DNA from: Thalassospira profundimaris
GTDB lineage: Bacteria; Pseudomonadota; Alphaproteobacteria; Rhodospirillales; Thalassospiraceae
Direction of reading: 5' to 3'
Assembly: GCF_003326675.1 (NCBI RefSeq)
Contig: NZ_JPWF01000002.1
Coordinates: forward strand, 186,001 to 250,000
DNA length: 64,000 nucleotides
Under the pieces are notes generated by a model. It saw only the letters and a list, made by a program, of their open reading frames with translations. It was not told where the DNA came from and searched no databases. Shown piece by piece: positions 19,336 through 22,221 of this stretch; position 1 is the first letter of the stretch; every line of letters starts with the position of its first letter. A program made the translations under genes and the position numbers.

Positions 19336-20784
19336 TCAGCTTGCCTTTTGACTGGTCAGCGCGCGAATTGCCGACATGCCACGACGACGCAAAACGTCGG
19401 CATCTTCCGGGCCATCAACGATTTCAAGCAACCGGACAGTCGCCATCAGGTTACGCTGTGCATTTGGGATTTCTTCAGGCGCCAAACGCCCCATCCCATC
19501 AACACCGGCACGCCCGATCTGATTGAGCTTTTTCTTAAGGTCAACCACCGCACGTGCAGCAGAACTTTGGGCTGCAAGCACATCAGAAATACGGGCGGTT
19601 TCAGCAATCGCCTCGGCCGATTTTTCTGCGGCCAGAACCTTTTCATCGTCAAAATCCTGGGCAAACAGCGGACGCCCGGGTCCCTTAACCCCTGATCCCG
19701 GACCCTGACGGACTTCCATCTTGGGCAAGGCATCGATCACGCGTTCCGGGGTTGCCCCGAACATCGTATCGGCCAAGGCACGCGACACACGTCGACGGGT
19801 TTCAAGCAGCTTTTCACCCCAACGCCCATCCTTGCGAATTTTAAACTCACGCGTGATGCGGGTGAATTCGGAAGCATACCAGCGGGCAAGCGACAGGATA
19901 TGGGCCTCGTCCTTGCCCGTACCAACACCTTGTTCAATCTCGGTCACGGTTTCAGCCAGCAGATCAATAATCAGATCGCCGGTTTCGGCCAGATTGGTTT
20001 TTTCAATCGTGCTGTCATCGGACTTGTTCGACAAGACGCGGATCAGCTTGAACAGTTCGCTTGGACGCAGCAATCGCGCAAGAACCGCAAGCAGGAACAT
20101 CGGTTCGAACCCGGGCTTCGATTTTGAAATACTCAGGAAACGGTCGCGCAACCAGCTTACGTCGTTGGCATCCAGCGCACGGATCGGCGCGGACGGGAAC
20201 CGGGATCGTACTTCACTGATTTCTTCGCCAACATTCAGGATACGACCAATTTCGGCAAAGGCCTTAAGATGCACACGCGATCCCAGGCTGGTGGCAAGGG
20301 CGCGTTCCTGTTTGACGCCATCATGAGAACGGGCAATCTGTTCTTCGATGATGCGCGCACCGGCTTTCCACAATCTGCTTTCGGCAGCGGCCAGTTTATG
20401 TTGATCGCGCGAAGCTGCGGCCGCATCAATTTCCTGCATGGCCTCGTTGAAGTCGCGGTCATTTGCGCCGGTGACAACCCGCCAGATCGGCATCAGGGAC
20501 ATCCGGCTGATGCGGATGCTTTTGTCACTTGGCTCACCCGATGTTAGAAGATCTTCAAACGGGTCGCAGAATTGGCGCATCGGGGTCGGGTAACGTTCAG
20601 GTTTGAGCGACGCAAGACGCGGGCGCAGAATTTGCAGAATGGCTTCATGGGGCAGCGGTAACTTCGGATCGGCGCGATCGCTTTCAATTGCACGTGTGAA
20701 ACGTGCAATTTCAGAACCGCTAAGCGATTCAAACAATTGCCCGAGTTGGGAAGCACCTAGTTTTCCTGCGTCTTCAACCTTCAT
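19336..20784 (-). CDS. Unrecognised protein, 482 residues, second gene of a coupled pair
   Basis: No family recognised. The protein is cytosolic by composition, mostly helical, with many charged residues and no signal or membrane segment. Residues about 125-175 (NEAMQEIDAAAASRDQHKLA onward) and 395-440 (EKSAEAIAETARISDVLAAQ, then VVDLKKKLNQ) look like coiled coils. A linker with GPGSGVKGPGRPLF near residue 380 separates two halves. Its ATG overlaps the stop of the upstream gene in ATGA, so the two are translated together and their products probably act together. Codon usage is like the neighbours, with no sign of recent transfer. Confidence 0.75.
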   Translation of the reverse strand: MKVEDAGKLGASQLGQLFESLSGSEIARFTRAIESDRADPKLPLPHEAILQILRPRLASLKPERYPTPMRQFCDPFEDLLTSGEPSDKSIRISRMSLMPIWRVVTGANDRDFNEAMQEIDAAAASRDQHKLAAAESRLWKAGARIIEEQIARSHDGVKQERALATSLGSRVHLKAFAEIGRILNVGEEISEVRSRFPSAPIRALDANDVSWLRDRFLSISKSKPGFEPMFLLAVLARLLRPSELFKLIRVLSNKSDDSTIEKTNLAETGDLIIDLLAETVTEIEQGVGTGKDEAHILSLARWYASEFTRITREFKIRKDGRWGEKLLETRRRVSRALADTMFGATPERVIDALPKMEVRQGPGSGVKGPGRPLFAQDFDDEKVLAAEKSAEAIAETARISDVLAAQSSAARAVVDLKKKLNQIGRAGVDGMGRLAPEEIPNAQRNLMATVRLLEIVDGPEDADVLRRRGMSAIRALTSQKAS

Positions 20785-21947
20785 GCAGATTGTCTCCGAT
20801 AACGTTCGAGACGATCCACCATATCCGCATCAATTTCCCCACTACCCAATTTACGCAACTCGCCAGCCCACAGCATCTGGTTCACACGAACGTCGACCCA
20901 GAATTGCTGTTCTGCGGCGGTGATTTCCTCAATCGGAAGGACTGGCGCGAAGCTTGCCACTTCCTCAATGATTTCGCGCTGTCTGACACGATCCGTAGTC
21001 GGGCGTTTCTGCCATAGATCGATCATTTCCTGCCAACCATCCAAAATCCACCAAAGTTTTGTGATGGTTTTGCCAATATCCTTTTGCGCCCTGTCCCAAT
21101 CGGTCAGAACCTTGCCCAGTTCGCTGTTCCAACTGTCGACTTCTTCGACGCAGCGAAGCGCATGCTTATATGTGGCCTGTGTCGCACTTGAAATCCGCCC
21201 GGCCATAAACCGATAATCGGATTGTTCGGAGTTTGACCATTCTTCGATATCGTTTGCGAACTTGCTCAACCCTTGCGTCAGACGACGCAACAGTCCCTGA
21301 CAGCCTTCAAGCTCAAGTCCGACCGAGGCGATCATTTTGCTCCATTCGCCGAGACTATCGATGATGGTGTCATTTGAAACCTTCGCCTCGGAGGCAAACC
21401 GGTTCAGGGCCTTGCGTGCGCGCACCTGACCTTCCATGGTCGTCAATTCTTCGCGCTGCATATCCTGCACAGCAGCGCCACCAAGCTGCAGCAAGGCCTG
21501 ATGCAGGACCGCAAGTTGCCCAAGTTCGCGAGACGATTTCTCATTGCCACCACGCCGGATTGACGTCCGCGCAAGCTCCACTCCGCCAACGCCGGTTGCA
21601 GCAACTGCGCGGGCGTGATCCAGCACAGTTTCCGGGCGAATATCTTCGAACTCCAGCAGACGGTCAAACAACATGCGGTCATGGACTGAAAGATCAAAAA
21701 CATCGCGCAGCGTATCGAGCGGCAACTCATAAGTCCCAAGACCACCGGACAACCCCGGCAGCATGATCATGGACCGACCACCCTTGCCGACAGCAACACG
21801 GGCATAGCGCAAAGTTTTGGTGGTGAATGGCGTCCGCACCCCACGTTGAACAAAGGTCTGGGGCAGACACGCCAACGGATCTTCCGGCGCTTGCGGTTGC
21901 GCTGGTGCTTTGTGGCTAACGGATTGAACGATCTTCTGTTTGGTCAT
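20781..21947 (-). CDS. Unrecognised protein, 388 residues, first gene of a coupled pair
   Basis: No family recognised. A short disordered, Ala/Pro/Gln-rich N-terminus (KAPAQPQAPEDPLACLPQTF) is followed by a basic patch (TKTLRYARVAVGKGGRSMIM) and a Gly-rich turn (LPGLSGGLGTYELPL). The rest is helical, with a Trp-rich section (KLWWILDGWQEMIDLWQKRP, near residue 310). No membrane segment is seen. It is the promoter-proximal gene of the pair; about 270 AT-rich bases lie upstream. The 4-base overlap with the next gene indicates translational coupling. Confidence 0.75.
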   Translation of the reverse strand: MTKQKIVQSVSHKAPAQPQAPEDPLACLPQTFVQRGVRTPFTTKTLRYARVAVGKGGRSMIMLPGLSGGLGTYELPLDTLRDVFDLSVHDRMLFDRLLEFEDIRPETVLDHARAVAATGVGGVELARTSIRRGGNEKSSRELGQLAVLHQALLQLGGAAVQDMQREELTTMEGQVRARKALNRFASEAKVSNDTIIDSLGEWSKMIASVGLELEGCQGLLRRLTQGLSKFANDIEEWSNSEQSDYRFMAGRISSATQATYKHALRCVEEVDSWNSELGKVLTDWDRAQKDIGKTITKLWWILDGWQEMIDLWQKRPTTDRVRQREIIEEVASFAPVLPIEEITAAEQQFWVDVRVNQMLWAGELRKLGSGEIDADMVDRLERYRRQSA

Positions 21948-22221
21948 TATGGGCTTTGATCAACCTGTGCCGGCGCTATTGTTTGTCGCCATTTGATTGA
22001 CTTGGTTACACCAAATGGCGGCAGTAGATGCAATGCAAAATGGTCGTCGCAACCACGCCAACCATAACTATAACGTGTCAGATCAAATCTGGTCCGGCAC
22101 GTTCTATCGCACAGCATAAATTAACCGCACAAGTTAACAATAATATTAACGTGTTTTGCCGAGATTTCCGCTATTTCCCTATCCCTTGAGATAAGCTTCC
22201 AATCCTCTTGCGCACAAATCC

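Follow-up and report, generated by a model that had tools for sequence, protein, structure and literature searches.

Two coupled genes of Thalassospira profundimaris and other Alphaproteobacteria encode unrelated, mainly helical proteins that may act as partners

Two adjoining genes of Thalassospira profundimaris, here called A and B, are best explained as a two-gene unit whose products, two unrelated, soluble and mainly helical proteins, would most likely associate during their synthesis, with B as the older scaffold and A as the later partner; we give this reading a probability of about 0.45. A physical partnership is the best reading because translation of the two genes is coupled, because they are co-inherited, and because paralogous partners have not been swapped; being passed on as a unit in several alphaproteobacterial groups, A and B probably work as partners. 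The pair lies in a window of 64,000 nucleotides (the whole stretch of DNA that was analysed). For neither family do Pfam, NCBIfam, PHROGs or PADLOC hold a curated model. The two are described here as a unit that is coupled and co-inherited, that is conserved strictly within a single marine genus and that also occurs on Azospirillum replicons, and the data provide a testable partner hypothesis together with invariant residues for mutation.

Both genes are encoded on the minus strand. Gene A, the first of the pair (388 aa; 20781..21947), and gene B, the second (482 aa; 19336..20784), overlap in a start/stop ATGA (20781..20784) that points to translational coupling and recurs, as ATGA or GTGA, in the Thalassospira relatives; the lengths, coordinates and overlap given in the preliminary description were exact when checked against the open reading frames. 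The two proteins are unrelated to each other as far as their profiles tell (probability of 0.2 in a profile comparison). Both are real genes under strong purifying selection, with dN/dS values, measured against four Thalassospira relatives, of 0.05-0.10 (A) and 0.04-0.06 (B), and of about 0.03 in one closely related pair. Their composition is that of the neighbouring genes (GC/GC3 of 0.547/0.577 for A and 0.554/0.556 for B; window GC of 0.536), which agrees with the earlier view that the pair has chromosome-like codon usage and is not an obvious recent import. Likewise, the proteins had been called soluble and mostly helical: no membrane-spanning stretch was found in either by Kyte-Doolittle analysis (maximum 19-residue mean of 1.24 in A and 1.35 in B), and the AlphaFold2 models are helical. 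The upstream gap that had been noted for the pair measures 274 bp (21948..22221) and is its presumed promoter region. A search of this region on the minus strand found no sigma-70-like site, and full CtrA-type sites, for which we took the consensus to be TTAA-N7-TTAA, occurred upstream of A in none of the 29 Thalassospira regions; in most Thalassospira, a partly conserved GTTAA...CTTGTC-like block is present some 171 bases before the A gene.

Neither protein had been assigned to a recognised family, and wider searches bear this out. Searched against Pfam, NCBIfam, PHROGs and PADLOC, with E values of up to 10 allowed, the A and B proteins matched no family; the sole row from these four libraries was a PHROGs match to B at E 0.36, and PADLOC gave 0 families at E 10, both of these libraries covering described systems only. 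A Pfam scan of diverse family members, 46 of B and 24 of A, gave only scattered rows of one or two members, at E of about 0.005 or worse. Profiles A3 and A4, compared with PDB sequences, reached best E values of 1e-4 (a designed protein) and 0.05, the rows being designed helical proteins and chance matches. Open papers made no mention of six identifiers, of proteins or loci, that belong to the Azospirillum members, and a general literature search returned nothing relevant. The novelty would sit at the level of the protein families, as judged by sequence distance from described families; the function of A and B could still prove ordinary.

Within the genus, the pair is universal. In a sample of relatives, A was present in all 29 Thalassospira genomes and in 0 of 91 other genomes, and B in the same 29 genomes; one further B match, in genome G079 (E 4.6e-4, 24% identity over 87 residues), was rejected as chance, being absent from the profile search, which found Thalassospira only. 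The A/B junction overlaps in all 29 genomes, as ATGA in 23 and as GTGA in 6. In 14 of 15 named Thalassospira loci, the pair is flanked by genes for an acyl-CoA dehydrogenase and a LysR regulator; the remaining locus stops where its contig does, and the opposite flank is less constant. One Thalassospira genome (G022:C69, L013 / L052) has B divided between two frames, of 468 and 134 codons, that overlap, which may be an assembly error or a loss; error is conceivable because the G022 assembly is 88% complete.

Beyond the genus, the distribution is patchy. Across 297 genomes of its own order, the B profile found 29, all of them Thalassospira. The preliminary description had looked to conservation of the pair across Rhodospirillales, and this part of its proposal fails, since no other sampled genus of the order has the pair and the other carriers belong to other orders of the class; its core, an undescribed, translationally coupled two-gene unit, is supported, and neither protein gave a clear match to a characterised family in these searches. 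Profile searches detected the pair in those other alphaproteobacterial orders and in Azospirillum. A first B profile found 43 of 337 genomes of the class; with wider profiles, A was found in 31 genomes (48 places) and B in 51 (66 places), both together in 27, A alone in 4 and B alone in 24 (Fisher p of 9.5e-22, a value that ignores relatedness). Some genomes (G505, G400) have several copies. Homologues without their partner in most genomes had been named as evidence against the pair, and on this the class sample is divided: 27 of the 31 genomes with A also have B, which follows directly on the same strand at 33 of 48 places, but B has A upstream at only 33 of 66 places and lacks it at the other 33, nearly all of the solitary B forming one separate clade. 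Outside Thalassospira, 14 of 19 partnered places (L146, which has A, is not counted) have an in-frame start in the same four-base overlap, and the other five start 4-13 bases further on. Frames of 1948 and 708 aa (L193, L194) gave A the look of a fusion protein; we discounted these as open frames that run on upstream in high-GC DNA.

Among plasmid records, the A search and the B search matched the same 16, all from Azospirillum. Two annotated records carry adjacent A and B genes labelled 'hypothetical proteins', and the replicons that carry the copies are large (0.65-2.0 Mb), with 11 of the 16 typed as non-mobilizable. B was found in 9 of 219 genomes sampled across the phylum, all Alphaproteobacteria and including its own genome, and A in its own genome plus one chance-like match elsewhere (E 2e-5, 79 positions); therefore, nothing supports either family outside the class at this sampling.

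Evidence of a shared history comes from the trees. Distances in the two trees were correlated for 32 A-B pairs with an r of 0.77, compared with at most 0.35 in 2000 label shuffles, and nearest neighbours agreed for only 19 of these pairs; the correlation excludes L153, whose A is broken into two frames, as well as four of the five additional Thalassospira pairs. The A and B trees are congruent, and shared species history contributes partly to this. Azospirillum has two old paralogous pairs: both proteins of L159 cluster with their L161 counterparts, and both proteins of L160 with theirs from L162; partners that have remained unswapped in this manner are not explained by species history alone.

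These findings bear on an alternative that we consider unlikely but worth weighing, namely that A and B belong to the same pathway and operon and never touch, with coupling serving only to equalise the expression of proteins that have separate tasks, for example, two steps on one substrate. Each family is indeed also found alone, at 11 A-only and 32 B-only loci, and the AlphaFold2 models are of single chains of A and of B. However, proteins without contact would leave the retention of the four-base overlap across orders and the unswapped Azospirillum pairs to be accounted for, and the A-B loci fetched have no specific third gene in common, the recurring neighbours being members of common families (LysR and acyl-CoA dehydrogenase).

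The two coupled genes, their patchy distribution in the class and their multiple copies in G505 and G400 might also suggest a module for toxin-antitoxin, immunity or anti-phage functions, by now resident in the chromosome. We regard this as highly improbable: PADLOC gave no family for the pair and PHROGs none that is credible, B had no match in 50,697 phage records, and, in Thalassospira, the pair is universal and keeps a conserved place with the same flanking genes, with strong purifying selection on both genes. It is because of this universality, place, constraint and lack of matches that a defence role is disfavoured. A complex of A and B would rather be a chromosomal, apparently housekeeping cytoplasmic assembly and no mobile weapon.

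The structures predicted for the two proteins differ in quality. AlphaFold2, with 27 aligned sequences, gave an all-helical model of B with a pLDDT of 84 and a pTM of 0.73, the C-terminal end of which consists of long helices at residues 380-402, 408-433, 436-457 and 459-481. Ahead of these helices is the Gly/Pro linker that had been recognised from the sequence, at about residues 356-372 (19669..19719, minus strand); it is variable in the alignment and of low confidence, with pLDDT below 50 at residues 358-368. The model of A is poor (pLDDT of 66.5) and has a small strand-containing N-terminal part followed by long helices. Structure prediction and Foldseek searches of each protein, which the preliminary description had proposed, were run, and neither model had a PDB row at E 0.001 or better; the B model, compared with viral models, likewise had none at E 0.001. 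In VIA-align, the models scored intermediate Z values against many helical proteins. A third explanation, that A is a BAR-type three-helix module and B an exocyst/COG-type helical-rod tether, the two shaping or tethering membranes, draws on VIA-align scores for A against endophilin BAR (Z of 9.1; 3.4 A over 114 residues) and TBK1 (Z of 9.2) and for B against Exo70 (Z of 8.6; 6.7 A over 193 residues) and Exo84 (Z of 7.8), but it is about as improbable as a defence module, given that, according to a VIA-align note, a Z below about 13 can mean a mere common arrangement in helical proteins, that Foldseek returned nothing at E 0.001 or better, and that the A model is poor. Any likeness to exocyst/COG-type rods and BAR-type modules is of fold only, in long helices and a weak structural alignment, whereas sequence matches are lacking and the best Z values lie within the chance range for helical proteins.

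Conservation within the families points to candidate working sites. Among 24 diverse A proteins, an N-terminal block of the form RG...PFTT...R...GTY...VHDR covers residues 35-91 (21675..21845, minus strand), in which R35, G36, F41, T42, T43, R50, G71, Y73, D90 and R91 are invariant or nearly so. The Trp-rich segment that had been placed near residue 310 was located at residues 299-312 (WW..LDGW......W; 21012..21053, minus strand), with G304, W305 and W312 invariant in the same 24 proteins. For B, the most conserved block of the family in 46 diverse members is at residues 54-101 (20482..20625, minus strand): R94 is invariant, and R54, P55, R70, E77 and W101 are nearly invariant. Alignment A1 was made without locus L020, which is close to L019, and alignment A2 without L020 and L013, the split B. 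Under the preferred reading of a physical partnership, this N-terminal Arg/Pro/Trp block would be the shared working site of B, and A would cap or steer B by means of its RG-PFTT-VHDR block and its Trp-rich helix.

The relative age of the two proteins is suggested by members that occur without a partner. A tree built from 69 B proteins places 31 of 32 solitary B in one clade with a support of 0.975, and as this separate clade holds nearly all of them, 37 of the 38 B entries outside it are partnered; the deeper branching is weakly supported. We propose that B is an older, self-sufficient helical scaffold, because a whole B clade exists without A, and that A would be the later partner. The solitary B proteins, annotated as hypothetical proteins of Alphaproteobacteria, are the closest known relatives, being homologous to B over most of its length and having the same R54-W101 block, but they differ in having no adjoining A, in their separate clade, and in the absence of the C-terminal helices from some copies. 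A can also act alone somewhere, since B does not follow at 15 of its 48 places, among them a distant A clade of six loci without an adjoining B (L193, L195-L199; support of 1.0). At the A-only loci L210 and L199, B may be missing through assembly, as both reach contig ends, and the B-only locus L121 is cut by a contig end.

Solitary B has a neighbourhood of its own. With neighbours scored above 150 bits, 18 of the 32 B-only loci have a response regulator and a histidine kinase, 12 have CcmF and 9 have a BrkB-type protein, and at least one of these signs is present in 22; within the DNA fetched, none was detected in the 32 A-B loci or the 11 A-only loci. Because members of the same B-only loci were used to build the regulator, kinase and BrkB profiles, the counts describe a shared neighbourhood and are no independent test. 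The regulator scored best with PmrA/PhoP models and the kinase with PhoQ models, all below the model cut-offs, and the alphaproteobacterial name for this PhoP/PhoQ-like pair is, we presume, FeuP/FeuQ. Partnered B does not appear as an accessory of such a system, as the sensor pair adjoins 0 of 32 A-B loci, compared with 18 of 32 B-only loci; A and B themselves are neither kinases nor regulators. The solitary loci have further cytochrome c maturation genes in common (CcmE, CcmF, CcmH-like), so that the proximity of solitary B to the sensor genes may reflect inherited gene order only. Because solitary B often adjoins the PhoP/PhoQ-like pair and cytochrome c maturation genes, the most likely role of A and B would be that of an adaptor in the regulation of the cell envelope or the respiratory chain, a role that these neighbours suggest weakly.

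As a tentative account, which we consider possible rather than likely, A and B would constitute a new cytoplasmic two-protein machine of Alphaproteobacteria built on an old helical adaptor, B. One branch of B would have stayed solitary beside an envelope sensor pair, and the other would have gained the unrelated protein A, after which the pair was duplicated, inherited as a unit and fixed in Thalassospira.

Several further observations concern B and its surroundings. BrkB/YihY-type membrane proteins with a C-terminal Rrf2-like stretch adjoin solitary B (L124:5480-6862, L126:8668-10044). Genomes of the f194 family (6.9-8.8 Mb; loci L254, L258, L261, L264 and L255-L257, L259, L260) have B next to a response regulator and a kinase, and three of the five have one or two further B copies elsewhere, without the C-terminal helices. 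A genome search also found a different Thalassospira protein of 272 aa (L243:4053-4871, G007), which has no Pfam match but contains a segment resembling the conserved N-terminal block of B (E 2.9e-5). Its gene is just upstream of a presumably MoaA-like gene, and a copy with 76% identity is present in the genome that contains the window (G000:C2:152292-153092). This protein may mark the conserved block of B as a shared domain.
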